NCBI RefSeq assembly: GCF_041146795.1
Contig: NC_135174.1
Span: 20,206,878 to 20,270,877 of the forward strand
DNA length: 64,000 bases
Direction of reading: 5' to 3'
Source of the DNA: Maylandia zebra
Lineage: Eukaryota; Chordata; Actinopteri; Cichliformes; Cichlidae
In this document: positions 24,275 to 48,581 of the stretch, piece after piece
How positions within the stretch are numbered: the first letter of the stretch is position 1
Layout: every line of letters starts with the position of its first letter
Made by a program: the position numbers and the translations under genes
The notes under the pieces: model-generated
Told to the model about the DNA's origin: nothing
Database searches by the model: none
What the model saw: the letters and a program-made list of their open reading frames with translations, nothing else

Positions 24275-27200
24275 ATGAAGAAAGAAAAGAAAACGCATGC
24301 TTTACTGTTTCTCCTTATGCTTCACTTCACCTCGGGTAAGGCTCTGCTTTTCTTTTACTGTCTTTGTTGTGTGTGGTTAAGACTTCTTGCCTCGCACTTA
24401 TCTGGTTAATCCTCTAACACAGAGAGGGCATGTCTGTCTTAGTGTGGACTTTCATGTTGCTTGTACTTCATAAATTTCAACATGCAATGCCGTTTTTGTC
24501 TGGGTCTTAATACTACAGCCTTATTATTTCTAATTTAACTCTTTTCTCCTCCCTGCTTTCAATTCCTGCCCTTGTTAGCAAGTGAGTGCAACTCTTCTCA
24601 CTGTAAAATAATAATTAAGGAGAAAAATAATTTGATGTGGTGAGAGACATTTGTGGGGTTTGTACAGTGTGTGGAGCAGCTTCCTTTTAGATTAGGTCAT
24701 TGTTTTTCTTTTATATCTCTCTTCTGCTCAAATAATGTGAATCGTCTTTTTCTTTCTTATTTTTTTTTTATCACAAAGGGCAATCAGACTATGCTCCATA
24801 TTTTTACGATAATGGTCCCAGCAGTACAAATGGAAATATGGCCTTGTTCAGCATCTCTGAGGATACACCCGTTGGTAAGGCTCCCGTAAAATTACATTTT
24901 TTTTAAAAATTATTATTGTTATAATTTAATATTTTTAAGTTTGGTATAATTTGAGCATGTTTTTACATTTAGTGTAGTTTGAGATGTGTGTTTTAAGTGC
25001 CTAAGTGTTGTATGAAATGATCTCACATGGTGCTAAGGCTCCAGCTAATCGCTATAAGATCTTTTGGATTGTGACGTACATCACAGTCTTACGGGAAGAA
25101 AACATTATGGGTAGAGGCTCATCTGACCTAACCTGTCAAACGTGCCTTTTACACTAGTGCTGCATATAGACATGTCACGTTTCTGCCCCATTTCAAAGGT
25201 TTTGTCCCTGTATGTGTTCTTTTCTCATAGGAACACAGATATATGTCTTGAATGGCACAGATCCGGAGGAAGATCCAGTACGATATGGTCTTGCTTTTGA
25301 AAAGGGCTCTACAGAATATTTTAGAGTGGACCCAAAGTCAGGAAATGTGACTCTAATTCAGGAGCTCGACAGAGAGGTGAGCATTTTAATAAAGACTCCT
25401 GGTTTGGAAACACACAAAAAAAAAACCCACTTTGGCTCAAAGTGATGTGACATCTTTATTTTTCATAGAAACAAGATGAAATCTCAGTGCACGTGAGCAT
25501 AACGGATGGCCGTAATAAAGTAAGCTCTATAAGCTACAGTGCAATTCAGTTTACAGTCACATTTTAATACTGCAATTTAACTGGAAACTCTATCATAAAT
25601 ATTAGGATTAAATAGTACTTCAAAAAAGTGCCATGACAGCCTGTAAAATCTATTTAACTGTGCATCATGACATTTTCTCTGATCGCTATTTAGATTATTT
25701 CTCTGCAAACAATGTCATTTTTTTAATAAGCTGTAGCAAAAGCAGCTGTTTTGGAAATTTGTAATTGCTTTTCACATGTGTTTCAGGTTGTTGAGACAGT
25801 GAGAGTCTTTGTCACGGATACCAATGACGAGCCACCTGAATTTCTAAATTTGCCTTTTATTATTGATATTCCAGAGGTATATTATATAAAATAACTATAC
25901 AGTTACATGCATGCATTCTAGAGTGTTTTTTCCTGAATGTAATAAAAGTGTTAAACTAATTAAATAATCAAAATTCAATAATGTTTGAAAATTATTGAAC
26001 TTTTTGCTCCTTTCCCAGGACACTGCTCCAGGAAGTAGCATCTACAGAGTCCAAGCAGTGGATAAAGATATGGGCTCAGGAGGAAGTGTTTCCTATTATC
26101 TACAGGTAACTTCACAGCCTCACTGTAATGTGCTTTTGTTACCATGGCAACTTCAAAACAACTTGAGTAGTAACTCCCAAATTGCAAATATTTTTGAAGT
26201 TGAATTGAAGTAAAGATGCACAAAGTCACCAGTAAAATTCAGGCACGTTAAAGAAGCTGTTGTGAATTTTAAGAAGTTTTGTTTAAACTCAGGTGAAAAA
26301 TGCCAGCCACATATCACAAATTAGAAACTATATAATGCACAAAGATCCAAATATCATACTTGATTAATTCTGGCTACTGCATCTATGTTTACTGAGCCAT
26401 CAGTCAGAAAAAAGCACTCTCCAAAATATAGCAGCTAGGCTTCTACGGCAGCACGTGCGCTGAAAAGTGACCCAGTGTAACCTAGGCTAAAGTTGAAGCT
26501 TTTTTTAGCCGCGTTGCACATGGCGTCCAGATGAATACTGAGTTGATTGTAAGAGAGTACTAATCACACAGAGGGCTCTTTATAGCTTTACACCTCTTTA
26601 CATCTTCAGCTCTCTTAACTCTCACATCCTGGAATACTCCCTGAAGTCTGCCAACACCTTTATCCTCTTAGAGCCCAAAATGTATTTAAAACTGTTAACA
26701 AGTTGGGTTTTTTTCATAATTTTAGCATTTCATTTTTTTCATATCTTAATTTTTCTGTTTGTTCTAGGTTTTTTTTTTAAGCTCTTCTATGGTTTGATTC
26801 AATTTCTGCTTTGCAATCCATTTAAAAATCAGTTACATTTTTTATTACCAAGACTGCAATGCAAAATAAGCAAATAGCAACACTTTTAACTAGCGTTGTA
26901 TGACCCTAACACTCAGGGATAACCAGAGGTCGACCTGACATCACGAGCATTGCGCGTGATGGAGGGAGGAAAAGGGCATATGAGTGATGGGACAGTGATG
27001 CAGGGAAAGATTAATCTCATACCATAGAGCAGTCTGGAAATCGTGTTACTTTAGTGGATTAAATTTCAATTACATTTGAGCATGGCATTGAAAGCTTAAT
27101 AGGGGCTTAGGTTTGGTCTGGGCCAACAGCTGACAGCACAGTGGTTGTTAGTCTCCATGTGTCAATTGTGAGACAAAGCTACCCTGAAATGCCAAGGTTA

Positions 27201-30200
27201 AAATGAGCCAGGCTAAAATTGATCGGTACCATATCAGAATTAGCTTTATTGGTTTTCATTGCTAAATTTAAGTCGAAATAAAGCACTCCTACTATCTTTA
27301 TTAACTGTGACTGTTATATTACCAGACCTCCCCATTCACCAAGTTCACCATTGATGGACACAGTGGGATCCTCAGAGTTAAACCTGGTGAGACTTTGGAC
27401 TTTGAGACCACACCAACGCATTTTGTGACAGTAGTTGCAAAGGTGAGAGGTCACTGTGACACTTTTACATTTGGGTTGTGCCTTTATTTGCTTAATCAAA
27501 TGGTCTTAATACATGTAAACACAGTAAGTAGCTTAGTTTGCAGGTATTTCTGTCCTCAAATGTAAAGGATTTTCAACTTTAAAGTCATGTATTTTTGACA
27601 TGCAATTGCATCAATCATGGGGTTTAAAAAAGATAAATGAAATTGCAGTTTAAAATTATTTAATTCTAAGTAGAAAATTACATAAAATCTAAAAATTAGT
27701 TATTGGAGTTTATCAATAACATTCCTTCTGATACAATTTGTTCATATAGAACCAAATCCTGCATATTGTAAAAAAACAACAACAACAAAACAACAACAAC
27801 AAAAACAAAAACAACATTATACTAAATACACACATAACATAATTATGTTCTATGAGCAACCCATTGCAGTAACTGAGAGGAAAACTTCCTTTTAATATGA
27901 AAAAAGAAACCTGCTGCAGAACTAGATTCAGAGTAAAAGTTGTTTTACCTTCACTGATTTGGGTGAGAGAAAAGCAAAGAGTGAAAAAGGGGAACAGGGA
28001 GCTAAAAAAAAAATCTGTTGGGAAGTGGTGAGATTTTAAGTTGCTGGTCTGCTGACGCACTGAAAGTCCTGCTCCCAAAAATAAGTATAATTTATCACTG
28101 TGAATAATAGTTGGTGGTGAAAGCTAGTTTATTTTTTGTAGCCTCGGCTCTGGCTACTTAAATACCTGGCTGTGTAACATTTAGTAGATAATCCAGTTAT
28201 TAAAAAGGTAAAGCTATGATGTATAAAAATATTATATTATAGTGTTCCCAATTAAAAATGAATTTCATTGCCTAACTTTTGATTTTTATTAAGGTGCAAG
28301 TTTTTCCTAGGTTTTTTTGGCCTTTTTCAACTTTAGTCGATAGACACAGTGAAGATAGGACAGGAGAACAGAGGCAGAGAAAGAGGGGAAGACATGCAGC
28401 AAAGGACCTTGGGTTGAACTCGAACCCGGGCCAGCAGATCTCAGTTGTATGGCACGTGGTCACAAGCTCAATGCACTGAACTAAAGTGGCAAATCAGACA
28501 ATAATTGCTTCTAAAATTATACTAAACCATGAACATGTATCTAAAATCTTATGCATGTTCTTTCTGCAGTTTGTGATTTTTAGCAAGTTAAGAAAAAACA
28601 AACTCTTAACTTTTTCAAGCAAGACATCTCTTTAAAGTGCAAGTAACATAGCATTTAGGTTAGAATACTAAAAAAATGTATATTTTTGGTTAAACTAAAT
28701 TTTTAGTGTTTTTTGTGAGCTGGCTTCAAGCTGTTGTGACAGATAACATGTAGCAGAGATCCCATAATCCCAACATGGCCGAATGTAAAATAAACTTAAC
28801 CATGTCTTTGATTAAATATAAAGGGTTAACTAATTATGCCATGTGGTAACTTTGCTTTTACCTTGTTGTTGTCACAGGATGGAGGTGGAAAGTACAAGGG
28901 GAAGCATCAGGTGTTGACTTCCACAGCCACAGTAACAATTAATGTTATTGATTCCCAAGACATGCCTCCATACTTTGTAGGAACACCATATTTTGGATAC
29001 ATCTATGAGGTCTCTGTTCCTGTAAGTTCTTGTCGCATTCACTGAATTAAATTTGATTTCAGTTATTGCTTTTGTCTCCATTGTGTTGATGTACTTTTTT
29101 ACTTCTAGGGCTCTGAAATATACACAGTGTACGCTAAAGATGGTGACCAAGGCAATCCTAACCCGATACATTATTCCATTATTAATGGTAAGAACAATAG
29201 CAAAAAGAGAAAAGTGCAAGATTTAGTTGCTTGTTTGTAAGGCAAAAGTGTGTTACTGTGTCTTCTTTTAGATTATGATCAGATTTCAAACAAAACTTCT
29301 ATCAACACCTTTCAGGTAGTGATGGTGTGTTCGACATAAATAGCACAAGTGGTTGCATCACCCTGACAACTTTTCCATCTTTGCTGAAAAATGAGCTGTA
29401 TGAAATCAAAGTCAAGGTAACAAGTTATTTTCTACTTATCTTCATTTTTAAAAGAAACTTTTCACCGCAGTAGCTTTTGAAACCACCTTCAGCAGCCATA
29501 AGTTGAACGGATAGATTTTTTTCTTTGTACGACTTTATTAGTCTCTCACATGGTTGTGGATAAAGTTTGGTCCACTCTTTACAATATTGCTTCAGTTCAT
29601 TGAGGTTTGCAGGTATTTGTTTATGCACAGCTCTCTTAAGTGCCAATCAAAGTATCTTAATCAGTTTTAGGTCTGGCCTTTGAGTGGGCCATTACAGCAC
29701 CTTGATTCTTTACCTTTTCAGCCATTCTGTTGTAGATTTATTGCTGTGCTTAGAATCATCATCGTGGTCCATGACCCAAGTTTGGCCAAGCTTTGTCTGT
29801 CAGGCAGCTGGGCTCACATTTGACTCTAGAAAGTATAGAAAGGAGTTCATGGTTGACTCAATAATTGCAAGGTGTCCCAGTCCTGTGGCTGCAAAACAAG
29901 TCCAAATCATGACCCCTCCACCACCGTGTTTCACAGTATGAGGTGTTTGTGATGATATGCTGTGTTTGATTTTCACCAGATGTAGTGCTGTGGATTAAGG
30001 CCAAACATTCACTTTGATCTTGTCTAGCCAAGGGACATTGTTCCAGAAGTCTTGGAGTTTCTTCAGACACAACTTTGCGAACCTAAGCTGTTCTGCTATA
30101 TTCTTTTTAGACAGAAGAGACTTTCCTCTGGCAAACCTTCTAAAACATGTTTGTCAGGTTTTGCCCGGCCTTGGGGCGTATTTTCTGGGATGTCCACTCC

Positions 30201-33200
30201 TAGGAAAGTTGCTACATTGTGTTAACATACACCTGAATGCTCCAGACCAGCAAAATTCCAAAACTTGTTATCGTACAGAGGTGGTCTCGCTGATGATCGG
30301 TTAAATAAATGCATTTGATTAGAATCATCTTGCTGCTTCTTCTTCTGCTTCTGGAATAGTTTTTAACAGGACTGCATAGAGTCCCATGAAAACCTTTTTT
30401 CACCGGTGCTTCTTACTCTCATTGACTATAATTTTATTTACTTGTGTATTTTTTAAACTGAAGGCATCTGAGATAGGCCCAAACAATGAGCTCCAGGACT
30501 ATGATGTTACCACAGTGACTGTCCGTGTGGTTGATCTCAACAACCATCCCCCAACCTTTTATGGAGAAAATGGGCCACAGAACAAATTTGAAGTCACCAT
30601 GTATGAGCATCCACCTGCAGGGGAGATCCTCCGTGGCTTCAAGATCACAGTCAACGACTCTGATCAGGTACATGAATTCCAAATTGCAAATATCTGATTC
30701 ATTCCTTGGACATGCAGCAGTGTGCTATTACTAATCAATAACTGTGATCAAAGGTGGTGCAATAATATTAAAATTTAAAGAATATTAGCCAGTTGACAGA
30801 TCCATTTAAAGAAATTACGTACAAAGTTAACTAAATATGTGAAAACAAACGTGTTGTGCAATAATGCCGCCCCAAAGTTGCAAATATCCAGCAAAAGTAT
30901 TGAAAGTAAAAATGTCACTCACTATGCCACCATGGTTAGTCTCCTCTACCTGTTTATAATAGCTCATGTAGCATTACATGACACTCTTATACTCTTATTT
31001 ATGTGGTGGCAACAGCTCAGGAGGTAGCACAAGTTATGTTATAATGTTAATAATAAGTTGGTGGTTGCTCCAGTCTGCATGCGAAATCCTTGGGCTAACT
31101 GCAAACCCCAAGTTGCATCTAATGGCGTGTGAGTGTGTATGAATGTATGTCAGAAAGCACTTAAGCATAAAAAAGTGTTTGTGTGAATGGGTGAATAAGA
31201 CATGTTGTATAAAGCGCTTTTAGTGCTTAGGTAGAGTAGAAAAGCGTTCTAAAAGAACCAGTGAGTTTATGTAATGGATTTCTGTATTGTGCTGACATTT
31301 TTAGGGAGCAAATGCCAAATTTAAACTGAGGCTAGTTGGGCCGAGCCGAGTGCTTCGTGTGGTTCCCCAGACAGTCCTGAATGAAGCACAGGTGACCATC
31401 ATTGTGGAAGACACATCCGGCATCGACTATGAAAAGGGGCCAACTCTCTCTTTTAAGGTGAGGCGCCGTATGGGCAATATTACAACATTACAATACGTTA
31501 TTATTAACAAGTGTCGAAGAAATAATCCTGTTAGTTATTTTACTGGGTGGGTAATCTCTTTTGGTTACTAGGAAATATGATTTTGATTAATGGCTTTAGC
31601 CCATGAATTAACTGCATTTTCATTAACTTAAGCTTTGCCTGTATACTAATACTTTGTGAATGTTGCAACATAAATACATAGCTCACCTTTTGTAAACTGC
31701 CACAAAGATAATTTACTCCAATCATTTGTGCTTTGTAAAGGACCCAGGCTAGAAATCCATCTATCAATATGACTGTAGATAAGCAATAACAACATGAGCG
31801 CCCTAGCAAGTCTCTGATTTATTTCACTGACTGCAGTGACATTAATTTTAAAAATCATAAATCAAATCTGAAAATATTTTCTTTGCTTGGTTTACAGTTT
31901 CACAGAGTAGCCAGTGTGGCTTTAGATATCTGTATATCCATGAACTCATTGATTATTCATTCATTTATTTGTTCATTTTCAGGCACAACAAATACCTATA
32001 TTGAACATAAAATGCACAAAACAAAAAACAAAAATTGCCTGAAAAAATTATGAGTTGACTAAAGCTTTCAGCACTAATTTAATCACTCTGAGTGTGTCTT
32101 CCTGCAGCTCCTGGCAGTGGAGATTGACACTCCCGAACGGTTCAGCGCAACAGCGGACATAGTGATCAACCTGCTGGACACAAATGACAACATCCCTAAA
32201 TTCACATCTGAGTATTACATCGCCAGGGTCCCTGAGAACTCTCCTGGAGGCTCCAGTGTTTCATCTGTAATAGTGAGTCAATCACAGTTAAACTCAGCTT
32301 TAACCTGATCAAAGTGATTATATAATCCATCTTTCCTCTATTAAATGCATATTGCTCAGCACAGTTCATTAGATAAAAGCAGATTGGTGCCAGACAAAAA
32401 CAGGCTTAGCGCTCTCTTGCTTCAGTTTGCTACTCCTGGTTATGAAATTTGTTATCTCCATGTCACAATCTGGCATATGTCCTATGTTACTCCTCATCGA
32501 GGGAGATTATTAAAAAATATATTGGCACATTTGTCCCTTGCTTGTCATCATACTGTAGAAACCCTGCAACCAGGCAATGTGTCCAAGTTAAGCAGTGAGA
32601 AGTAAAAAGCTTAATTTTGCTTCAAGGTTAATCATGTTGACCGATGCTTGCTGAACATCCCCTCGCAACACACTGTATATGAGCTTAAGACTCTATCTAG
32701 TTGTCCACAGGGGGTTTTAGTAAAAATAAATGACACAATAAATTATTTTCAGTCACCTTAAAGTAATCATATTTATTTAAGTTACATATCTATACACTAT
32801 TATGATGTAATTTTCCAAATAAGTAATTAAAAAATTTTAAAGTGTAATTTTTTAATATTTTGTTGTGTAAGCATGAGTATGTATGTGTGGTATGTAGGAG
32901 TATGTAGGTGTATAATCGCCTTCCTTTTTTTCTCTGTAGGCAAACGATCCAGATTCCGGGTCTTGGGGTGAAGTCAAATATACGATTTATGGATCAGGAT
33001 CTGATTTGTGAGTATAAACCTTTCATTGCTGCCAATTTAGGTTCATTCTGATCAGATCTTTAATTCTGGCATTTCCACAAAATGCATTTCACAGCCTAAA
33101 GTTATTTTGAAAGTATGAGTCAAAAATGCTCAGAGGCTCAGGGTGTTTAGTGCCAGCAGGACACTAGTCTTGAGTCATCTTTGTGTCTTTGATGAAAGAG

Positions 33201-36200
33201 GTAAGCGGGAAACTGGTTTGATCGGCCCCTCTGCTGCACAAACAGCTCGCTCTAAAATGGCTGTAAGATGCTGGCTAATCTCCTAATTGGATTGGTAGGT
33301 TAAAAATAGAGAGCCTGGCCCATCTCACATAGGCAGAGCCAATTAATATGCAATGTGACAGCTGGAGCCACAGAAACGGCAGCTTTGAGAAGCAAGGCAA
33401 CATACAGCGAAGGGAAAGTGAGAATTTATGCCTGTCTGCAGGCTGCAACCTGAGTTAATTGTGTGAAAGTTATCAGTTCCAAGAAAACTTGTGAAATTTC
33501 ACAGCGAAAAACAAGACAGAAAAGTCTGCTGAATAAAATGGCTGCATGCCCAATGTTGAACTAGAAGGCACTCAGAAAGCTCCTGGCAAGCTTTAAAATG
33601 AGTAAACCTGCTGTGTGTACGAGCAAGTATTTATTCCTTATTGTATCCCTGAAATTGTTATGAATGTGTTTTTAGGTTAGAGAAATATAACAGGTGGTAA
33701 AAAAAATTAAGCCCTACAGGGTATAGTCAAGCTCTCCTGATTAGTGATCACTTTAAAACAACCTCTGGAAAGTCTGAAAATCTCAAATATACATTCACAA
33801 TGTTTGAAATGACAAAATAGTTAGAAGCTTTGTGGTTCCAGATCCTCAGAAAACACAAACAGTGTATAACAATAAGAACAAAATTGAAAAAAAAAACTTG
33901 GCAATTATTGTGTAAATCAATATTTCTCTACAGATGTACATATGCATTTCATATGCTGGAGATCTGTCTTTAAGGAAGCAACTCATTAAACATATTCTCC
34001 CTGCAAATCAGGGTTCAGGATTTTTCACCCAAACAAATAAGCATAAGCAGCAAAAATGTACAAGTTTGTTTTTCCTACACGTTTTTTAAATCAACTGGAT
34101 TAACATCTGAAGCCTTACAGTACAACACGTCTGTCCAACGATGGCTGTAAAGTTGTTTTTTATAGCAAAGTGTGTCATGTAGAGATTCACAGGGAGCAAT
34201 GAAAATCTGTCACTTGAGCTGTGAATTACGATGCCTGTATTAGAAACGCCTGGTTAGTTGAGATGAAGCTAAATGGACATCTGTGGTTGTGACTCATGCA
34301 CTGTGTGATCTGAACTGCAGGTTTTCCATTAACGCTTCATCAGGCCTCATCACCACACAGCCCTGGACCAGCCTGGATGCAGAGGTCAGGTCAAAGTACA
34401 ACTTTTATGTCAAGGCTGAAGATTCAGAGGGGAAGTACAGCTTGGCTGAAGTCTTTGTCACAGTCACTGACATGAACGACCACGCGCCAGAATTTGATGA
34501 AGTGCTCGTGGAGAAGACGATGATTATTGGCACGCCTGTCAAAATAGAGGTACATTTTGCTTTGAAATTGATCTATCTCGTCTCTTTTAGCTTAATCTGT
34601 GATTCTACTTTCACCAAGTTTCAGCTTTTTTGTTGTAAACTGAATGTTTTGGGAGCTTAGATAACAGTAAACATTCAATGTATTGAGCTTTGGTTCTAGA
34701 AAAGTTATGATTGCATAATTTGGCATCAAAAGACTAAGATTTTGGTGTGTAGAGCTTTCTAAATTTGTTAATATTCCATGGCTATAAATACAAAAAACAC
34801 TATTTGCGCCTTTCTGATAAAGACTACAAAAAACAGCTGTTTAAAATGTATTCAGTTGTGTGGATTAACTAGAAACGTGTAACTAAATTAAATAAAATTT
34901 GATTTCAAATCTAAGGAAAATCTGAAGCCTGCAGTGGATATTCTGCATTAATACCTGGTTTAAAACACTTCTTATAAAGTAATCAGTGTGACTAATTAAA
35001 ATTATTAATAGGGAAACAACAATTCCATAGCCAAGTATACGGATGATAAATTGACTCATCTTAAAATGTATGCATATATGTGCCAAAGCTAGGTTAAAGA
35101 ACGACATATTGCATGCAATATGTCAAATCTAATGCATTTTACAGAAACATCACAGCCTAAGAATAAAGATTTATTCGTTTACATTTTAACTAAACGCTAT
35201 TGATGCATGATGCTTTTTACAGGCCGTGGATGAAGATGCGGAGTCTCCAAACAACGTCATTGAATACTCCATCATGACCGCAGATCCTGACAATGCATTT
35301 GACATCAATGCTGACACTGGCGAGATCAAGCTGAAGCCTTATATTAAGTCTATGGAGATTGTACAGAACATCACCAAGCAGAAGGACTGCAAGTGGTCTG
35401 TGGTGGTCGAAGCCAGGGACCGAGGCTCTCCGTCCTTCAGCACAACAGCTGTGGTCAACATCGATATCACAGAGGCGGTAAGACTTGTTCCGACTCGGAG
35501 CATGCTTGCAGTGCTTCCTGTCCCAGAGCTGAGCTGTAGACGTGCATTTTAACATGAGTCAATAGGGACTGTTGCCATGCTACTATATGCTTCTGCTAAA
35601 TCAGCGTCCTTGTTTCAGCTAGTCACATTTCACTAAGTTCATCTACTTTAAAGGATAACACTGGTAATTTCTTATAGTTTATTTAAAGATCAGAACTAAC
35701 AATAAAGTTTCCTACTAAGAAGTGAAAAAAAATCCATTAATACTAACTGGACTATCAGGTTCTGAATGCAATCTAATTTGTGGCTTTAAATATGAATTAT
35801 TACAGAGTTTTAAAACCAATTAACTCTAAATTTGTAGCTTTCCCTTTCAGAACAAAGTTTTATCATAAAAAATTATTTGGACAAAAAAACAGTTTTAACC
35901 ATTCTGGGATTGATCCACTGAACAGTCAAAGGCCACTTCATTAGTTACACTTTTTCATTTACTGGTTAACACAAATATTTAATCAGCCAATCATTTGGGC
36001 TCACCAAATAAGACAAGAGGAGACTCAAAAATGTTGCCTAAACTGATGAGTCACAATTGTTGCTGCAGCATCCAGATGGTGGGTCAGAATTTGGCTTGGG
36101 CAACATGAATGCATCAATCCATCCTGCCTTGTCAGCAGTTCAGGCTGGTGGTGGTGATGGTGGTGTAATCATGTGGGGAAATTTTTTGGCATACTTTGGG

Positions 36201-38022
36201 TCCCTCAGTACCAAGTGAGCATTGTTTAAACACCACAGCCTATCCGAGTAATGTTACTGCGCATGTCCATCCCTTTATGGCCAATATGTACCCATCTTCT
36301 GATGGCTGTTTCCAGCAGGATAATGTGCCATGTCACAAACCTCAAATCATCTCAAACTGGTTTCTTGGTCATGACCTCCACAGTCATTCAATAGAGAACC
36401 TTTGGGATATAGTGGAGCAGAAGATTTGCATCTTGGATTTGACACCAACAAATCAGCAGTAACTGTGTGACGCTATCAAATCAATACTTAGCTCTGAGGA
36501 ATGTTTCCAGCACCTTTTTGAATGTATGCTTTGGATTATTACAACAATTATGAAGGCAAAAGAGCCAAAGCCAACCTAGTGCTGGCAAGGTGTGACTAAT
36601 GATGTGGCCAGTGAGTATATATGGTCATGGCTACACATTTTACTTGTTGATGGAAAAATTCACACTCATTTTGATCTTTGAAATATTGATATAAACATTA
36701 GCATTATCCTTTGAAGTTTTTGCTCATTTGCATTGATCCATATTTTTCTAATACTTTTTGTGTTTTCATCCTGAATCCATTATTTCACTCTCCATGATGT
36801 TTTTGGTTCTGTTTGTGTGTTGTGTATCGTGCTTTTCAGATAAAAGGTCGAGTTGTTTCATACTTCATGGGCCTCAGCAAGCGTCCGCTGACTGTTTTTG
36901 GAATTTTTTTGAGCATTCTCACGTCCCTTGTTTTACTAACAATCTGCATATCCACCATCCTGTACTGTAACGCAGTGAAAAAGTCCAGAATCAACCCTGA
37001 GAGTAACTACATTAAAGTGGTCCGCAGAGTCAAGTGAGAAATAACCAATGCCTCTCCTTCATTTTCATTCATGAACATTAAAATAATGTTTACTGGCTGG
37101 GTTAGGTCTGTAAAAGAGTACCGGTGTACATTGAAAGAAAAGTCTTTTTTATTATTTACTATTTTTACTTCCACAAACTTTTTTGGTCCCATGAACTGGT
37201 CATTATTATTGTTTAGCCCTCGTCAGTCAAAGAGAAATCCTAATGCATCGCACTGCCAGACGCATTCCTAAACATTAGAGACATATGTAGTTGCTAGCTT
37301 TCCTGTATTGTAGGGCAGAAGATGGATGTCTGGGTGCGAGTGTGAAAGTGCTAGAGTGTTCATAGACATGTTGTTTGGGCCTCCTCTGTCAGTGCTTTGG
37401 CATCCAATTTCATGTTTGCATGCTTTTGACAAATACTTGGAATTCAGGTTCAAACTGTTTTATTTTTGCTCTTTTACAGACTCCTCTCAAGGGGCCTATG
37501 GCAGCCTTTTTAATGAAAAGTAGGGACAATCCTTTAAAAGCTCTAGGCATGGTCACTTTTATCATTAGTGTTTTGGTAGGAGGGACTGTCTTGATCTCTA
37601 CGGCTATGTACATGCGCAACTCAAAGTCCAACAGGATCATGCCAGCACGCCGCATCATTAAGAGGCGACCCAGGGACCAGCAGCCTTGGACCTTCAAGAT
37701 ACCTGTTATCAAATTCACCAACCCTGGAGAAAAGTTCCTCATAACCAACCCGGAGAGCAGCCTCCAGCAGGAGACAGGTAGCCCCCGGCTGAAGCCTCCA
37801 CCTCCCATTGCTCCCTGTCTTCCGCCTCCACCTCCCTCTAACGTGCGGCCCAATGAAAGGCTGCGTGCAGTCCCAACAATATCTGGCGCACTGGCATCCA
37901 AAGGCTCCAAGAAAGCTAAGTCCAGCCGCCGTAAGGAGGGAAACATCAGCTCTGCTTTAGTGTCGGAGCTTAAAATGAAGCTTGAGCAGAAAATACACGA
38001 GAACAACCAAGGTTATTATTAA
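24275..38022 (+). CDS. cdhr1: Cadherin-related family member 1 (photoreceptor cadherin, protocadherin-21), long form
   Basis: Single-pass cadherin at the base of photoreceptor outer segments, needed for disc formation; human mutations cause cone-rod dystrophy. Seventeen coding exons: 24275-24335, 24779-24874, 25231-25376, 25469-25519, 25787-25876, 26019-26105, 27326-27442, 28878-29021, 29109-29187, 29316-29416, 30464-30667, 31305-31457, 32108-32272, 32940-33007, 34321-34549, 35223-35477, 37480-38022. All phases fit, giving 862 residues (human 859). Residues 1-21 are a signal peptide. Six cadherin repeats follow, with calcium-site linkers [36 protein letters not shown] and DMNDHAPEF. The membrane segment is about residues 703-727. 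The tail is basic, then proline-rich, and ends in a coiled-coil-like piece and NNQGYY. Poly(A) signal at 38884-38889. A second last exon at 36840 gives a shorter form (separate entry). Confidence 0.97.
27770..27816. repeat. AAC-rich microsatellite
   Basis: Imperfect AAC/AAAAC repeats in cdhr1 intron 7. Confidence 0.8.
28300..28490 (-). repeat. tRNA-like SINE-type repeat fragment
   Basis: Contains GGGGAAGACATGCAGCAAAG and, in inverse orientation, GGGTTCGAGTTC, close to a pol III B box. This combination is, from memory, a common teleost interspersed repeat. It is in cdhr1 intron 7. Family name not certain. Confidence 0.5.
29455..30397 (-). mobile_element. Tc1-like DNA transposon, degenerate (cdhr1 intron 10)
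   Basis: Read on the minus strand, the stretch gives pieces of a Tc1 transposase: [20 protein letters not shown], then GPGHLAIIE, then [20 protein letters not shown] at the C-terminus (29425-29646). The reading frame is interrupted and about a third of the gene (N-terminal DNA-binding part) is missing, so it is dead. The right edge, TGCATAGAGTCCCATGAAAAC in inverse orientation, matches the left edge of the copy at 54.2 kb, so the two are one family. It lies between cdhr1 exons 10 and 11. Confidence 0.85.
31005..31265 (+). repeat. tRNA-like SINE-type repeat fragment
   Basis: Begins with an A-box-like CAGCTCAGGAGGTAG, then GTTGGTGGTTGCTCCAGTCTG, where a B box is expected but worn. It ends in GTGTGAATGGGTGAATAAGA, TAAAGCGCTTTTAGTG and AGAAAAGCGTTCTA. 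The body matches a widespread teleost SINE-type repeat from memory. It lies in cdhr1 intron 11. Confidence 0.6.
35916..36617 (+). mobile_element. Internally deleted Tc1-like transposon (cdhr1 intron 16)
   Basis: Degenerate inverted ends built on GGCCACTTCATTAG (left, near 35931) and CTAATGATGTGGCCAGTGAG (right, near 36597) are followed on the right by TA. The interior gives Tc1 transposase pieces on the plus strand: WSDESQF-like, QAGGG-like, [17 protein letters not shown] and [12 protein letters not shown]. The 5' half, including the DNA-binding domain, is gone: the left end jumps straight to the catalytic region after AATCAGCCAATC. About 0.7 kb remains of the 1.2 kb or more expected. Confidence 0.85.
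36840..37037 (+). CDS. cdhr1: cdhr1 alternative last exon (short cytoplasmic tail)
   Basis: After a good acceptor (GCTTTTCAG) this open exon encodes 65 residues: [17 protein letters not shown], a membrane helix, then a short basic tail ending VKVVRRVK-like and a TGA at 37035. It joins exon 16 (ending 35477) in phase 0, as does the long-tail exon at 37480. Ungapped, it matches that exon at KG, M, PL, G, I, LV, T, IST and Y, 14 of the first 41 positions, so the two look like tandem copies. Using it gives a 747-residue protein with a cytoplasmic tail of about 20 residues and none of the proline-rich region. Transcript use is inferred. Confidence 0.75.
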   Translation: MKGRVVSYFMGLSKRPLTVFGIFLSILTSLVLLTICISTILYCNAVKKSRINPESNYIKVVRRVK

Positions 38023-39469
38023 CTTTAATGCAAAAATATCTTCTTTGATGGCTCTTAACTCACTTCATCCGAGTTCTGTGTGATGATGAGGTTACGTGAG
38101 CCTACCTTTATGTTATTTACAAGCAAACAAAAGAAGAGAGTGGTTTACATAATTATGTCTTAAGACAAGATAGAAGTGGGCTGCAGTGTATTCTCAGTTG
38201 ACCTGCTTTAGATAAAAACAGGAGACAGCTTGAGTCAGCAGTACAGTACTAGATAATTCACCACACTGCCATCTTGAGGAGGATTATCATTTTAACATTA
38301 AGAAGCATTACAAGAAATTGAAAGCTGAGAAGTTGCTCTTTTGTATGATGAAAATGTGCCACTGTAGGTTTTCACAGTAAGAGCATCTTGCTTTTATTTT
38401 GTTGAGTGAGTAACTGTAGAAAATGCTTTTATATAAGTGGATGTGGATCTATTTTAATTGTACAGCACTGTAAACATGGCAAAACCGCAGCTGTATCATG
38501 ATGCAGTAAATACAGCAAAGTCAAAATTAGACCGTCTAACTCCTCTTGAAGGATGTTGTTGATAAAAATCAGTCATATGCTTGAAATTTTTAAGCTCAGA
38601 TTACTATTTATATAAGCTGCTTGGACACTTAATTCATATGGGTATTTAAATGTAGTGTCAAAAATGTAGGGTCTTTGCACTGCTACTTTCCAGGTTACTT
38701 TTAAATGCCTTCAAATGTAGGCAAATACAGTGTCATCACTGCAAGAAATATGATGTTCTTGATTCTATCTTAGCTTACTATTGTAAATAAGTTTAGAAAA
38801 ACTATATATGTTACATATAAATAACACTTGCCTGGTATTTCAAAGTAACATATTTGTACTGTCTTTGTACTGTCTTGATTTTGAATAAATATTCAAAAAT
38901 ATCTTGGTCTGTGCTCAATTTCGTCCTGGTGGTTTGATGTAGTTTTTTAGTTTTTTGGGGTTGTGGTAAAGACACAAAAACTAAGACACTGATTAAAATA
39001 AAGAAAACAATACATACATTATTTTTACACAGCAACACTGTCCCCATAGTTGAAAAGTTCACTGCAAATAATGCATTGGCTTAAGTGGACTGGCTTAAGT
39101 ACAGCGCTTAATTTTGATGTTTTGGTACTTAGAGTTTTTATGGTTAATCTTGCCTTATGAAGATCATAGCAATGCAAGGGGAGGGATCACTAGTGCAAAC
39201 AAGCGTGGGACTAATGTCAGTCTGTTATGTAATGTAAATCACAATGTTATAGCAGCTGTGCTTTGTTAGTCTCTTGTTGTTGTTGTGAATTTCTAATGTA
39301 AATGTCACTGTTTTCATGGCTGAGGGTGGAACTCAACCTGGCTATCGATGAACCACCATGACTAATACTACAGCAGTAAGTGGTAACATGTGGCCACCCT
39401 TTCCATGTCCAAATTCCAGTACAGTTGTAGCCATGGGTTTGACCAGTGCATAGAAGTCTTTACCTTCTT
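38023..39469 (+). other. cdhr1 3'UTR and downstream flank
   Basis: About 860 bases of 3'UTR end at a likely AATAAA (38884-38889) followed by a T/G-rich stretch. From about 38910 to 39469 no gene or repeat was recognised. Confidence 0.6.
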
Positions 39470-39473
39470 TTAA

Positions 39474-41085
39474 CCCTTGTATGGTGTTCGGGTCTGTGAG
39501 ACCCGTTTTCAGTTTTTCTCAAAAGAAAAATTAAACAATTAATTATTTTTTCAACCTGAAATTCATTGGCTTTGGCTTATTTTCTGTGAAGAACATGAAT
39601 CCGAACTAATTTTCAATGACCTCATACTGTACCTCCCCCCACGCATTTACATTACATACAAGGTGTTCGGGTCCACTGGACCCAGGCCTAATAAAAGTGT
39701 CGAAAGTGCAGGTCCTGTGTTCCCACACTCTGTCTTCCTCCTTTCTGGTGCTGCTGATGGTGTTTTCTTCCCCTCCTGCTCCGCACAAAGTTGCAACATT
39801 GTTGAAAATTCAACTATCAACACCGTCTGCTCTTACATTTCCACACATTTTACCCTCTTTCTTGAGGGATCCAAATTTTCTCATCCCCTGTCCCACCTGC
39901 AAATTAGGGGCATAATACTATAAATAAGACTTTGCCAGTGTGGTTCTTTATCACAACTGATCAAGATGGCAAAAGATTATCTGCTGCGAGGGCCATCCAA
40001 TTGATTTTGGAAGAGAGAGTGGCTTCGGATGATGATGTTGACAAAGAGGTTTCAGAATATTTCACATTTCTGAAAATTTAGAGTCTGACAGTGACTTTGA
40101 AGAAGAGGATGAGGTTGAGCACCATTTAGTAACAAAACGAAGACGAGCACCCCATCTGCAGCCAGCTCCAGGACCAGAACAAGCCCACCAGACAGCAAGT
40201 GAAGAAATATGGATGTCAATAACTGGTGAAATTGAATGGTCTTCTTGCCCAAGAAATGAGCCACCCTGCAGAGCTGTTACTGTGATAAGCCAGGGCCAAC
40301 ACGGCTGACAGTTACTCATGTGCAGGACATCAAGTCTTCATTTGAGCTTTTCATCCCAGATTACATCCAGAAAATTATTCTGGATTGCAGTAATCTAGAA
40401 GGAAGGTGTGTTTTTGGAGAGAGGTGGAAGGAGATGGACCAAATTGATCTGCAGGCCTACTTTGGGGTTCTTATCCTTGCAGGAGTTTTCAGGTCCAAAG
40501 GGGAATCCACAGAATCCTGTGGGATGCAGAAACCGGCAAGAACCTTTCCGTGCATCAATGTCTCTGGAAAACTTCCACAAAATTTCCAGGATTATCCGTT
40601 TTGATAGCCGAGACGACAGACCAGCTCGACGGCAGAGAGACAAGCTAGCTGCCATCAGGACAGTGTGGGATAAGTGTGTGCACCACCTACCCCTGTTTTA
40701 CATCCCTGGGCCTAATGTCGCCATTGATGAGCAGCTGATCCCATTTAGTTGTGAAACATATTGCTTCACGTGTAAATGTGTTGTCTTTCCACTCACTCCA
40801 CTTGATTATAACTGATTTATGTTTTTATAACATTTTATAAAAAATAAAAAAAATAAAAAAAACGAGAAGCACATTAATTCATAAATGTGATCTAACAAAG
40901 GTAAAGGGAAAAAATTAACCATGTTTACTGTTCATATGGCTTGTAATTGGGATGAAGTAAACATCTGTTGAGTAATTTAACATAAAATTGTTTGATAGTG
41001 TTAATTTGGAAAGCCAAAACTCTAGCGGGTCCACCAGACCCATGAACACTGGCTGAGTAACAAAAATATGAACACCACACAAGGG
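39474..41085 (+). mobile_element. Internally deleted piggyBac transposon
   Basis: Flanked on both sides by TTAA (39470-39473 and 41086-41089), the piggyBac target duplication. The 16-bp ends CCCTTGTATGGTGTTC and, inverted, CCCTTGTGTGGTGTTC differ at one base. Inside, from an ATG near 39966, are an acidic N-terminus and PGBD-type pieces: FELFIPDYIQ, DLQAYFGVLILAGVFRSKGE, FRASMSLENFHKISRIIRFD, DRPARRQRDKLA and VAIDEQLIPF, the first catalytic Asp block. The sequence stops about ten residues later, so the rest of the DDD domain is deleted. Frame breaks also separate the pieces. Non-autonomous, but its ends look mobilisable. Confidence 0.93.
39970..40815 (+). pseudogene. Truncated piggyBac transposase remnant
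   Basis: Covers the acidic N-terminal region and the first part of the DDE_Tnp_1_7 domain. It is read in at least two frames, which meet near 40500 (one frame gives VLILAGVFRSKGE, the next gives PQNPVGCRNRQEPF onward). It ends shortly after VAIDEQLIPF, against about 550-600 residues in full-length relatives. It lacks the second and third catalytic Asp and the C-terminal zinc finger. Confidence 0.85.
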
Positions 41086-41655: not shown

Positions 41656-42754
41656 GGTTTCAACGTAACTTTATTCTTTCATGAGTTATTTACAAGTTTC
41701 TGACCACTTATAAAATGTGTTCAATGTGCTGCCCATTGTGTTGGATTGTCAATGCAACCCTCTTCTCCCACTGATAGCAACACCGCAGGAGAAATGCCAG
41801 CACAGGCATCCAGTATCCGTAGTTTCAGGTGCTGCACATCTCGTATCTTCACACCATAGACAATCGCCTTCAGATGACCCCAAAGATAAAAGTCTAAGGG
41901 GGTCAGATCAGGAGACCTTGGGGGCCATCCAACTGGCCCACGACGAACAATCCACTTTCCAGGAAACTGTTCATCTAGGAATGCTCGGACCTGGCACCCA
42001 TAATGTGGTGGTGCACCATCTTGCTGGAAAAACTCAGGAAACGTGCCAGCTTCAGTGCATAAAGAGGGAAACACATCATCATGTAGCAATTTCAAATATC
42101 CAGTGGCCTTGAGGTTTCCATTGATGAAGAATGGACCCACTATTGTTGTACCCTATATACCACACCAAACCACTCTCCAGTGACGTGCAGCGAGTGCTAC
42201 GCTGTGGGTTCTTGCTGAATGAAGCTAGGACAGCCACTGATGTTTCTTCATTAGTGACAGTTTTCTTGCGTCCACATTTTGGCAAATCCAACACTGAACC
42301 AGTTTCACGAAACTTAGCAAGCAGTTTGCTAACTGTGGTGGTCTCGTCGGGTGTCTTGCATTGAAATCTGCTGCAATGACCCGGTTATTGCATTCACCAG
42401 ATATCAACACAATTTTGATCCGCTCCTCACGTGTTAACCTCTTCGACATGTCAATGGCTGTGAACAAAGAGAAACTTGTAAATAACTCATGAAAGAATAA
42501 AGTTACGTTGAAACCAAGCACACCATTGTTTTTCTTGTGACATTACCAATAAGTTTGATGTGTCACATGGCCCTCTTCCTATTGAAAAAACAAAAGTTGT
42601 ATCCAAGATGGCCGACTTCTAAATGGCCACCATGGTCACCACCCATCTTGAGGAGTTTGCCCCCTCACATATACTAATGTGCCACAAACAGGACTTTAAT
42701 ATCACCAAACATTCCCATGTTATTACGGTGTATCCATATAAATGGCCCACCCTG
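41656..42754 (-). mobile_element. Tc1/mariner-superfamily transposon, internally deleted
   Basis: A perfect 45-bp inverted repeat lies at 41656-41700 and 42471-42515. On the right, the element continues beyond it to the terminus CAGGGTGGGCCATTTATATGG (minus strand, ending 42754) followed by TA; the left side has no matching outer 240 bases. The minus-strand transposase starts MSKRLTREERIKIVLISGE at 42450 and ends with FFQQDGAPPHYGCQVRAFLD and RSPDLTPLDFYLWGHLK at 41721-42140. The middle, with the first catalytic Asp, is missing. I recall close relatives in many arthropods as well as fish. Confidence 0.9.
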
Positions 42755-43115
42755 TACTTCTCCAGGCTTTCTTGCACCTGCTCCCTACTCTCACTACAGA
42801 TCATAGTCTCATCTGTGAACATCACAGTCCACAGAAACTCCTGCCTGATCTCATCGGTCAACCTGTCCATCACCACTGCAAACAAGGTGCTCAGGGATGA
42901 TCCCTGATGTAATCCTACCTCCATCTGTTACTCCAATAGCACCTTTCCTCACAGTCTTGCTACCCTCATGTATGTTCTAAAAACCATGTCTTCACTCACT
43001 AGTATATTTGCATCTCTAACCTTATTCACTTAATCTACTGCACATCCTTTCCAGCTCGATTTCTGCCTCTAGCCAACTAGTACAAGTCCTTTTCAAGACT
43101 TTCTTGGCTTGGTTT
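42755..43115 (-). mobile_element. RTE-like LINE fragment, reverse-transcriptase part
   Basis: The minus strand encodes VGLHQGSSLS, AVVMDRLTDEIRQE and MFTDETMICSESREQVQESL. The RT active-site box FADD is changed to FTDE, so the copy is dead. It continues in the fragment at 41110-41655 on the other side of the inserted DNA transposon. Confidence 0.75.
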
Positions 43116-43129
43116 TTTCTCAATCTTTC

Positions 43130-44995
43130 CAGAATGTCTGGAATGTGAACAATTTCTAAAATACTTTACTGATAAAATTCTATCTCTCAAATCCTCACTC
43201 CCCCCAGTGGTGAGCCTTGCTTTCACTGGAGAATGTGCTTCTACTTTTCATCAGTTTGAGCCAGTGTCACTCTGTACACTTAAGCAAATTGTCAAGCAAC
43301 TGAAAATTACTAGTTCTGCATATGAACCTCTTCCGTCTCGCATTGTGAAGGACGGCTTTGATGTAATTGGGCCCAGTATTCTATTTTTAATGAACTCATC
43401 ATTGTCTTCTGGCTATGTTCCCTCTGTTTTTAAACATGCTATAGTGCAACCTGCTCTCAAAAAAAGGTGTCTTGACCATTGTGATTTTGTTAATTATAGG
43501 CCGATATCCAAACTTCCATTCCTCTCCAAAATCCTAGAGAACATAGTTCTCTCGCAACTCCAGGCTTACCTGGATGCGCATGACATCTGTGATAAATTTC
43601 AGTCTGGTTTTAAACCACGCCACAGCACCGAAACAGCTTTGCTGAGAGTCCTTAATGATCTTCTCTTAATTACTGATTCAGGGCATTCTGTTGTATTAGT
43701 CTTATTGGATTTGTCCTCAGCTTTTGATATGGTTGACCATAATATCTTATTAACGAGGTTAGAACGCACTGTGGGCATTCGGTGTGAAGCCCTTAACTGG
43801 TTCAAATCATACCTTTTGAACAGGTCTTTCTCCGTTACCTTGGGTACTTATTCTTCCTCAACTGCATCCTTATGCTGTGGTGTGCCCCAAGGCTCTGTAC
43901 TTGGCCCAGTGTTATTCTCATTATATATGCTCCCCCTAGGCTTAATCTTTCTCGAGTGCATGAGAGAAGTCAGAGAATGGCTTTCAGGCAATTCCCTTAT
44001 CCTGAATGATAAGAAAACGGAAATTGTGGTGTTTGGCAACCATATCCCTTGGGGCCTATTAGCTGATACCTTTGGTTCCTTTGCCACTTCTTTCTCTGAC
44101 TCAGTTAGTGACCTAGGTGTCCTGCTGGATAGCTCTTTCAAATTTAACAAACAAGTGTCCTCAGTAATCAAATCTAGCTTTTACCAACTGCGCCTTATTG
44201 CTAAGGCTAAGCACTATGTTCCTCATAAAGATCTTGAAAGGCTCATTCATGCTTTTGTGACTTCTAGATTGGATTACTGTAATTCTCTCTCCTTTGGTCT
44301 TCACTCCGCTCTCCTTCACAGACTCCAGCTTGTCCAAAATGCGGCGGCTCGCCTCCTGACTGGCACTAGAAAGCATCACCCCTGTTGTTATTGATTTGCA
44401 TTGGCTACCCATAAAATATTGCATTGAATTTAAAATATTGTTGCTCACCTTTAAAATTATAAATAATTTAGCCCCTCGTTATCTTGTCGATCTTCTTAGT
44501 CTATATGTCCCTGGGCGAGCCCTCAGGTCTTCAGCCCAATTACTCTTGACTCAGCTTAGATCTAGACTTAAATCTAGGGGTGACCGTGCTTTTGCCCTGG
44601 TTGCACCTAATCTGTGGAATAACCTTCATCGCTATCTGTGCGTCAGACTCCATTTTATCTTTTAAATCCCGTTTAAAAACTCACTTATTCAACATAGCTT
44701 TTCCATCTAGTTAGTGTACTTATTTTATATTTGGTTTAATTTTTATTTATGTACTTTACCTTTTAGCTTTATCTGTTCTTAGTAACTTTGTTCTTATATT
44801 CCCTTTTATTGCTGTATAATTAGTGCCCTCAACCTGATGACATATGTGGTACTTTGTAAATAGTCTTTTATTTAATCATGTCTTAATTTACCTGTTTTTA
44901 TTGTAAAGCACTTTGGTGTACCGCTGGTTTTTTAAACGTGCTATACAAATAAAGTTGTATTGTATTGTATTGTATTGTATCTTTCCATAATACAC
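43130..44995 (+). mobile_element. L2/CR1-like LINE, 5'-truncated
   Basis: Reverse-transcriptase pieces in order: VNYRPISKLPFLSKILE, FQSGFKPRHSTETALLRV, LLDLSSAFDMVDH, CCGVPQGSVLGPVLFSLYML. Further on are LNDKKTEIVVFG and LHWLPIKYCIEFKILLLTFK-like, then RSSAQLLL and DRAFALVAPNLWNNL. A single frame stays open for 395 codons (43207-44394), yet the piece between SLYMLPLG and REVREWLSGNS, which should hold YADD, is missing. The 3' end has AAAGCACTTTGGTG and a terminal TATTG pentamer array (44965-44990), as expected for this clade. The endonuclease domain is absent. Confidence 0.88.
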
Positions 44996-46479: not shown

Positions 46480-48581
46480 CTAGTACAGGTAAGCTGCACT
46501 TCCTCCTTTGGACTTATCCTCAGACCTCCGTCTCTTTGTTGGCTTTTCCATTGAACTTTTGCACAAAGCTTCATCGCTGGTTGCCTGCAGGCTGTCAAAA
46601 GTGCCCTGCCTCGCCCCCTCCTGCAGGTTTTCATCATGCATTCTGTGCATCCTCCACAGATCCACAAACCGGTCCACACAGCTGAACCTGGCCTCTGTGG
46701 TGCAGGCATACATGCCAACCGGCACAGCCAGCACCATTGCGCACACAATAACTATAATGTGGATTAACCTTTCTTTCTGCTCCATCTCACTAATGTCACT
46801 TCCTGTTACAAACACAATGCACTGACCTTCCCTTGGTGGGTGGTTCTTCAGGGTCACACACACCTCGTATTTGGTGACAGGAAGCAGATTACTGACCGAG
46901 TAACTGTTGATGCCCGGGCCAATGTAGATCATTTCCTTCTTTGGTGAATCATATTTGCCAAAGTGGATGGTGAACCAAGTTTCTGCAGGATTTTCAGTTG
47001 CTGCGTGCCACTCTAAGGTAATTCCATAAACTGTCTGTTTGGCTATGTGTATTTCAATGTAGGCATTCTCCTCAGATGACAGCATAGGGACAGGCGGGAG
47101 GAGAGGAAGGGAGGAATCAGAAGAGGCGATGTTAACTGTAATGTTGACAGAGGAGTTGCCAATGAAATTGTTGGCCGTGCAGGTGTAGAGTCCTCGGTCT
47201 GCCAGATGAAGAGAGGGGATCAGGAGCTGGGAAGAGAAGGTCTCCTCATCGATGTTTGTCTGTGATGCTGCAAGGTGAAAACAGCATCAGAGCAAATCAC
47301 AGGATTTTTTTCATCTGGTAATGACATGCTCAGGTATTCTGATATTATGCAGTAAGTATTGTCTCTTTCAAAACACTGCAGCCTGGGAGTTCACTATATA
47401 TACTTCGCTAAGTGCTCCAACAGCAGGTTCACAACAATTTAATGGATGGTAGTGATTAAAAAAAAATCTTACCAACAAATCCTCTTATAATCTTCAGACT
47501 GTACATCCACTGAATGGTCGGCTCTGGCCTGCCCTTCACTAAGCATGTTAGGGTTGCATTTGCTCCCAGAGGTAAAGTGATGTTGGTTTCTGGGGCAGAG
47601 GTCACTGGCCTCATGCATGATTTTAACTGAATCTCGTGGAAAAACTTGTGAGCTTTGAGAGCTGGACCTGAACACATCAGATAAGAGTTCATCAGGATGA
47701 TGGGAGGGCTGACTGCCCTGGTGAACTCCACAAAGCCTTTGAGGCGGCAGTCACACAACCAGGGATTATCATGCAGCCCCAAAACCACATTTGACACCAT
47801 CCCTTCTTTTGCCCAGGCTTTCTCAGCTATTTGAAAAAGGGGCCAATTAATGAAGACTTCTTTTGCTATGACACTAAGCTGATTGAAGGATAAATCTAAG
47901 TAGGTCAGTGCAGGTAAATATCTCAGAGCATGTTCGGGTAGCACATCCAGGTGATTGTGTTTTAGGTCCAAAATCTTGAGTTTTGGTGTATCCTGAAATG
48001 CTGTCCATGGTACTGAAGTCAGCTTGTTCCCTTGTAGCCTTAGCTCAGTCAAGTTAGCGAGCCTCTCTAGGCTTTTCATGTTCATCAGAGCGATCTCATT
48101 AAAATTTAGCCAGAGGAACTCCAAGGCAGGCACTTTTGAGAAGGATCCTCGAGGTAACTCAGTCAGATGGGATTTTTCAATTCGGATTTTAATGAAATCA
48201 TGTGGGATGTCCACTGGGATTTCTCCCATGGAGGTTTCCATACATAGTAAAGACCTAAAATGACAGACAAGAAAATTTGTGCTATACAAAGATAATGGTG
48301 TAGTACACTTAGCTTAAACGCAAATTTTGGATAGTGTTTATTTGGGCATTTCACACTAGTCATGCTATAAGTAATGTTTATTGTAGCACGTAACTTATTC
48401 AAAAGAGGACAGACTCATAGCAAATATACAACCGAGCTTTACAATGTAGCATATTTTTAGTGGCCACTTACCTTCCTAAGATATCATCTGTGCAGGAGCA
48501 ACCGAACAAACAAGTTGACGATCCAAAAGAGATGAACTGGAATACCAAAGTGATATGCAATGTGACATAAAAGGCGTCCAT
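46480..48581 (-). CDS. lrit2: Leucine-rich repeat, Ig and transmembrane domain protein 2
   Basis: Retinal type I membrane protein; its exact role is little known. Three coding exons: 48581-48472, 48254-47473, 47267-46480, giving 559 residues (human about 550). It begins with a signal peptide and a Cys-rich LRR N-cap (CLFGCSC). About five leucine-rich repeats follow ([44 protein letters not shown]), then an LRR C-cap with [15 protein letters not shown], an Ig domain ([11 protein letters not shown] to [10 protein letters not shown]), an FN3 domain, a membrane helix near residues 466-485 ([20 protein letters not shown]) and a basic tail ending GGSAAYLY. The lrit1 paralogue lies 1.6 kb upstream in the same orientation. 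Exon phases match lrit1, but the exon joining LRR and C-cap is unsplit. Confidence 0.95.

Follow-up and report, generated by a model that had tools for sequence, protein, structure and literature searches.

In the cichlid Maylandia zebra, the photoreceptor cadherin gene cdhr1 very probably ends in two tandem copies of an ancestral last coding exon, to either of which the last exon common to all transcripts, exon 16, would be spliced. We refer to the copies as exon A and exon B. In the explanation that we favor, the use of exon A is regulated, and A would anchor the protein in the membrane differently from B without being a replacement for it. The evidence comes from the DNA sequence of the window, a stretch of 64,000 nucleotides of contig NC_135174.1, and from published descriptions of the human gene.

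The cdhr1 gene and its surroundings

The coding part of cdhr1, on the forward strand, was rebuilt from splice sites and reading frames. Sixteen shared exons, located between 24275 and 35477, amount to 2,046 nt, or 682 codons, which encode a signal peptide and cadherin repeats; the smallest, of 51 nt (25469-25519), is needed to reach the total of 682 codons. All 16 donors are GT, all 15 acceptors of the shared exons are AG, as are those of exons A and B, and the phases are consistent. Coordinates are collected in Table 1.

Table 1. Features of cdhr1 and of the sequence around its alternative C-terminal exons (positions in the window; a slash marks the exon boundary)
Feature	Position	Strand	Remarks
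cdhr1 shared exons 1-8	24275-24335, 24779-24874, 25231-25376, 25469-25519, 25787-25876, 26019-26105, 27326-27442, 28878-29021	+	
cdhr1 shared exons 9-16	29109-29187, 29316-29416, 30464-30667, 31305-31457, 32108-32272, 32940-33007, 34321-34549, 35223-35477	+	
Exon 16, last shared exon	35223-35477	+	85 codons, phase 0, donor GCG/GTAAGA; Pfam Cadherin E = 8.7e-10
AG exclusion zone before acceptor A	36717-36837	+	121 nt without AG
Branch-point-like CTAAT	A at 36751	+	89 nt upstream of exon A; by pattern, one of five candidates
Exon A, putative alternative last coding exon	36840-37037	+	65 codons + TGA, own transmembrane helix, 22-residue basic tail
Donor-like CAA/GTGAGA overlapping TGA of exon A	37031-37039	+	7.45 bits; candidate A-to-B route
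ATTAAA, candidate poly(A) signal of A	37077-37082	+	40 nt past exon A stop
Exon B, final coding exon of the 862-residue form	37480-38022	+	180 codons + TAA, transmembrane helix and a proline-rich tail of 135 residues
AATAAA, candidate poly(A) signal of B transcript	38884-38889	+	

The Pfam Cadherin family matched the shared part of the protein with an expect score of 1e-67; five stretches passed individually, and the sixth repeat was not among them. Six cadherin repeats are reported for CDHR1 (PCDH21, prCAD), PMC5539332 being among the sources. The long form predicted here has 862 residues, one helix and a divergent tail, and human CDHR1 has 859 residues. Spot checks against the human protein agree with the model: exon 16 encodes 85 residues here and 86 in human, and a glycine is found 23 residues past the junction in both. 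The identification of the gene as the orthologue of CDHR1 draws on the architecture, the length, the human spot checks and the neighboring genes, which were named by eye.

GHITM-like exons, named by eye, are located upstream of cdhr1 at about 17.5-20 kb. Downstream, on the minus strand, leucine-rich LRIT-like ORFs were recognized by eye at 46480-48313 and 50149-52437, and the minus-strand interval 46480-52437 appears to hold two genes for leucine-rich-repeat membrane proteins, one LRIT2-like and one LRIT1-like. GHITM, LRIT2 and LRIT1 are the neighbors of CDHR1 on human 10q23.1; the succession of GHITM-like, cdhr1 and LRIT-like genes in the window appears to resemble that order.

Homology of exons A and B

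Exon 16 can join exon A or exon B, in phase 0 in each case, which would give a protein of 747 residues (682 + 65 codons) or 862 residues (682 + 180 codons). An initial annotation of the window had proposed these two products, with a stop codon and a membrane helix in each exon, a short basic tail in A and a proline-rich tail in B. The reconstruction confirms the coordinates, the phases, the stops and both lengths. It also agrees on the protein ends: one strongly hydrophobic stretch is present in A and one in B, with best 21-residue Kyte-Doolittle means of 2.53 and 2.13, respectively, and the tail of A has 22 residues with a net charge of +6, that of B 135 residues with 19 prolines. From 14 ungapped identities in the first 41 positions counted from a shared KG, a count that we reproduced exactly, the annotation had further suggested that the last coding exon is duplicated. 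An ungapped match over 65 residues and the distribution of matches over codon positions, described below, both support that suggestion.

The similarity between A and B continues into the tail. Aligned without gaps at an offset of two, the copies are identical at 21 of 65 residues over the whole of A; the helix contributes 9 identities in 25 residues and the rest of A 12 in 40. A BLASTP comparison of the two copies returned a gap-free alignment with 20 of 59 residues identical (34.7 bits; E = 2e-8, a value that applies to a single comparison). These numbers were compared with 20,000 shuffles that preserved composition separately for the juxtamembrane, helix and tail parts of the protein. The shuffles gave a mean of 5.9 identities in 65 and a maximum of 16. 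The BLOSUM62 score of the observed alignment was 77, compared with -31 ± 17 for the shuffles, the highest of which scored 45. The Smith-Waterman score of A against B was 82, and no score above 63 was obtained in the 45 pairs formed by 10 further frames of the window that contain a helix, those with the helices of both LRIT-like genes among them. Judged by these comparisons, the last coding exon of cdhr1 is duplicated in tandem, and the copies are homologous along all 65 residues of A.

Selection and age of the duplication

Nucleotide matches between A and B are not evenly distributed over the codon. At codon positions 1, 2 and 3 the copies match at 33, 35 and 17 of 65 sites, and the corresponding means in shuffles are 18.9, 20.2 and 17.4. 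For positions 1 and 2 combined, 68 of 130 sites are identical, compared with 39 ± 4.9 in 20,000 shuffles of whole codons within regions, none of which reached 68. The third positions, with 17 of 65 sites identical, are at the chance level, and the same codon is used at 4 of the 21 residues that are identical between the copies. An excess of matches at positions 1 and 2, with none at position 3, is the signature of an old duplication whose copies were maintained by selection on the protein, although the pattern gives no date for the last selection on A. The initial annotation had made an ancient origin conditional on a human isoform that would use the counterpart of exon A. The chance-level third positions and the length and junction of a human tail, presented below, support this view, and the duplication is probably ancient.

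The codon composition of A was also compared with that of the introns, using a measure trained on the remainder of the gene. When B was included in the training set, and the tested introns in the background, the codon likeness of A was 8.87 bits; when B was left out of training and the tested intron was held out of the background, it was 4.76 bits. In both tests the value for A was unreached by any of 171 open windows, drawn from 6,398 windows in the 15 introns between shared exons; the best of these had 2.44 bits with B in training and 1.64 bits with B left out. The sequence scanned outside the gene supplied 45,050 windows, of which 2,107 were open; 456 of the open ones reach 8.87 bits, but the sequence there contains exons of other genes. 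Stops are present in the other two forward frames of A and in all three of its reverse frames.

Splice signals and a candidate poly(A) signal of exon A

The initial annotation had described both acceptors as good, which is generous in the case of A. On a matrix made from the gene's 16 other acceptors, B included, acceptor A has a middling score of 5.96; B scores 6.62, and the leave-one-out scores of the 16 range from -0.99 to 11.92. Among 617 intronic AGs, 25 equal or exceed acceptor A in score, and five of these belong to the 93 that were examined in the interval from exon 16 to B. Acceptor A is thus plausible but ordinary, and its score alone would not pick it out.

The sequence in front of acceptor A is free of AG for 121 nt, compared with 30 nt for B and 13-81 nt for the 15 acceptors of shared exons. 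None of 506 intronic AGs, a set that omits the real acceptors and any AG within the initial 150 nt of an intron, has an AG-free zone of this length. Human exons with AG exclusion zones of at least 100 nt are enriched for alternative splicing and often have distant branch points, and between one-fifth and one-half of such zones are estimated to mark a distant branch point (PMC1431707); with 121 nt, the zone of exon A falls within that length class. Candidate branch points, identified by pattern, are found 114, 104, 89, 72 and 53 nt upstream of exon A. The long AG-free zone may point to a distant branch point, and through it to controlled use of A.

Two features at the end of exon A bear on how its transcript might end. 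The donor-like site that overlaps the stop codon is equaled or exceeded in score by 7 of 544 intronic GTs and is above 10 of the 16 real donors of the gene, which range from 3.34 to 9.54 bits in leave-one-out scoring. The ATTAAA at 37077 is weak as a poly(A) signal and may be due to chance, because an identical motif occurs inside exon A (37011). Control by Musashi through UAG motifs downstream of A was considered as well and gained no support: 400 nt contain 8 TAG, compared with a mean of 5.7, and 12% of 93 overlapping intron windows reach that count.

A probable human counterpart of exon A

Two isoforms of human CDHR1, of 859 residues (isoform 1) and 745 residues (isoform 2, NP_001165442.1), are identical over their first 680 residues (PMC6201214). 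Human exon 16 ends at c.2040, which is codon 680, in phase 0, and its skipping deletes 86 residues in frame (PMC5539332). By subtraction, the private ends of the human isoforms have 65 residues (isoform 2) and 179 residues (isoform 1), compared with 65 and 180 in Maylandia zebra, and the isoforms differ in length by 114 residues in human and by 115 here. Human G703, placed at the start of the membrane helix (PMC5539332), comes 23 residues past codon 680; exon B likewise has a glycine as its 23rd residue.

Human isoform 2 therefore resembles the A form in leaving the main form where exon 16 ends, in phase 0, and in adding 65 private residues, for a total of 745 compared with 747 residues; its tail and exon A were compared through length and junction. 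These agreements lead us to infer strongly that the exon used by isoform 2 is the counterpart of A, and that the duplication is older than the split between ray-finned fish and tetrapods. The human isoform itself is already annotated. Its accessions, that of the protein and that of the transcript, each appear in one paper. Among the CDHR1 literature matches listed we found no link between the same exon in fish and human through duplication of the exon that anchors the protein: none describes isoform 2 as arising from a duplicated last exon, or mentions its occurrence in fish.

Alternative explanations

Exon A could be internal, splicing on to B through the CAA/GTGAGA site over its stop codon and turning B into 3' untranslated sequence. 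Translation would continue for 10 residues of B, out of frame, before reaching a stop in the last exon. The anchor would still be of the A type, but its end would be slightly changed and the private part would have 75 residues. The quality of the donor-like site, at 7.45 bits better than most real donors of the gene and rarely equaled in its introns, argues for such a route. However, the private tail of the human isoform has 65 residues, the length set by the TGA of A, and not 75, so that we judge a terminal exon A more likely and its internal use unlikely. The two accounts depart from each other only at the 3' end of the A transcript, and their odds overlap. The human comparison, one of length and junction, can itself be questioned: isoform 2 might have another origin, such as read-through into intron 16 or an unrelated exon, in which case A would be found in fish only and the equal length would be a coincidence. 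Such an origin is very unlikely given that the junction is identical (codon 680, phase 0), that 65 private residues are present in both species and that the chance-level third positions of A and B already demand great age.

A further view is that A is a dead duplicate or a pseudo-exon, out of use in Maylandia zebra. Its middling acceptor, which 5 of the 93 AGs examined from exon 16 to B outscore, speaks for this view, but A combines an open frame containing a helix with coding-like codons, an excess of matches at positions 1 and 2 only, an intact phase, a long AG-free zone and a human private tail of equal length, which makes its death highly improbable. Nor do we find it credible, except as the barest chance, that A and B are unrelated and owe their likeness to the few residue types used in helices. 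Helix composition does raise the number of chance matches, to the mean of 5.9 in 65 given above, but no shuffle exceeded 16 identities where 21 were observed, 12 of the 40 residues outside the helix are identical, and the helix-bearing control frames score lower. A pair of homologous exons, with A used as a regulated alternative end, is the explanation that we carry forward.

Database searches and other elements in the window

No relatives of exon A were found in IMG/VR or in GTDB contigs, which is expected for a vertebrate exon and thus uninformative, and none of exon B in IMG/VR. Pfam returned no match for exon A, and two matches for exon B, to DUF1129 (E = 0.068) and to PRIMA1 (E = 9.1), neither of which reached its cut-off. 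The best PDB match of exon A was to a stretch of the adhesion GPCR L2 (E = 0.0065), which we take as chance, and that of exon B had an expect score of 0.16. Across the window no Rfam family reached its gathering score. A pattern search of exon B for the Siah degron motif (PMC7719784) was negative, the only resemblance being VRP at residue 804, and we base no conclusion on it.

Intron 16 contains a degraded DNA-transposon stretch at 35931-36612, with the inverted ends GGCCACTTCATTAGTTACAC and GTGTGACTAATGATGTGGCC. Its frames resemble a transposase of the Tc1/mariner type by eye, and Pfam gave no match in the three frames of three that were tried. Derivation of exon A from this remnant was judged unlikely; the remnant, delimited by eye at approximately these positions, is upstream of A. 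Other elements were also named by eye. An ORF of 437 aa on the plus strand (43081-44394), between cdhr1 and the LRIT-like genes, resembles a LINE-type reverse transcriptase. Frames at 41721-42542 on the minus strand are like a Tc1/mariner-type transposase in pieces, and frames at 40260-40815 on the plus strand are like a piggyBac-type transposase. At 8691-9935, on the minus strand, an ORF of 414 aa resembles a carbohydrate sulfotransferase.

Proposed function of the two ends

Whichever copy exon 16 is spliced to, the protein would gain a juxtamembrane stretch, one helix, a basic patch and a stop. The ectodomain is common to the two forms; what distinguishes them is the stretch of 16-18 residues just outside the membrane, the helix and the tail. 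Exon A would act as a regulated alternative last exon, most likely with a poly(A) site of its own. The A form would adhere on the outside but, having hardly any cytoplasmic tail, would present almost nothing to the interior of the cell and would miss any partners of the long, proline-rich B tail, and it may be a differently anchored or differently shed form rather than a replacement for B.

Cleavage of CDHR1 releases the ectodomain, and it is described as unclear whether rods and cones both carry it out (PMC13090022). A changed juxtamembrane stretch and helix could alter this cleavage. That the alternative helix exons of Drosophila N-cadherin did not differ in targeting (PMC2655722) counts against this functional part of our explanation. 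A broader proposal is that the choice between A and B might be a conserved vertebrate switch for ectodomain anchoring, in which B would tie the ectodomain to a long tail and allow regulated shedding and A would hold or release the ectodomain differently, with use depending on cell type (for example, rods and cones; retina, olfactory bulb and skin). We consider the broader proposal doubtful. If the switch were real, it would provide a direct genetic handle on the rod-versus-cone question of CDHR1 cleavage raised in PMC13090022.

Human disease variants

Recessive variants of CDHR1 cause retinal dystrophy in human (PMC5539332). Two of them, p.I841Sfs*119 and p.Thr804ProfsTer12, are beyond codon 680 of isoform 1 and spare isoform 2. 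The variant p.I841Sfs*119 was homozygous and segregated in one family, where it was classed as pathogenic (PMC5539332), and three further patients had it together with another variant (PMC9140808). The variant p.Thr804ProfsTer12 is listed as likely pathogenic, in cases marked as partially solved (PMC9368980). A third, p.G703D, is rated as being of uncertain significance by the paper that reports it (PMC5539332). The numbering of all three follows the long form; if the exon pair is ancient, this suggests a need for B in photoreceptors. Because recessive disease alleles fall in exon B and leave isoform 2 intact, photoreceptors probably cannot use A in place of B. Either these cells do not make A, or A is incapable of the work of B, or the foreign tail created by a frameshift is itself harmful. 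Since p.I841Sfs*119 adds such a tail, the disease may stem from that tail and not from the loss of B.

If the exon pair is ancient, clinical variants past codon 680 would affect a single isoform, and which of the two tails is used may matter when disease variants are interpreted. Variants in exon A could then escape tests that use the main transcript NM_033100 alone, and the absence of known A variants consequently says little. By the same reasoning, a gene-replacement construct made from a single cDNA would carry one form only. In two zebrafish papers on cdhr1a, one dealing with Siah1 turnover and one with pcdh15b, the word "isoform" is absent from the main text, and the forms were seemingly not distinguished there.

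Comparison with known systems

A survey of tandem duplicated exon substitution in human catalogues 236 events, which affect 214 genes and include 77 swaps at the C-terminus (PMC9741552). The events in that survey likewise exchange homologous tandem exons; they are ancient and enriched in membrane proteins, and the authors report teleost counterparts for >90%. CDHR1 does not occur in the main text of that paper, though the supplementary list may include it. The cdhr1 exons are homologous, stand in tandem and can join the same neighboring exon in frame, and on this evidence exons A and B are probably a pair of tandem duplicated, alternative C-terminal exons.

Exons 18a and 18b of arthropod N-cadherin (PMC2655722) also belong to a cadherin and are duplicated exons, of 68-70 residues, each encoding part of a helix. 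They are internal and mutually exclusive, and the cytoplasmic domain that follows is common to both forms, whereas each cdhr1 copy ends the protein, so that the tail differs as well. Exons 17.1 and 17.2 of Drosophila Dscam, as cited in the same paper, are alternative transmembrane exons of a protein that, unlike CDHR1, is not a cadherin, and the choice between them is reported to change the location of the protein in neurons.
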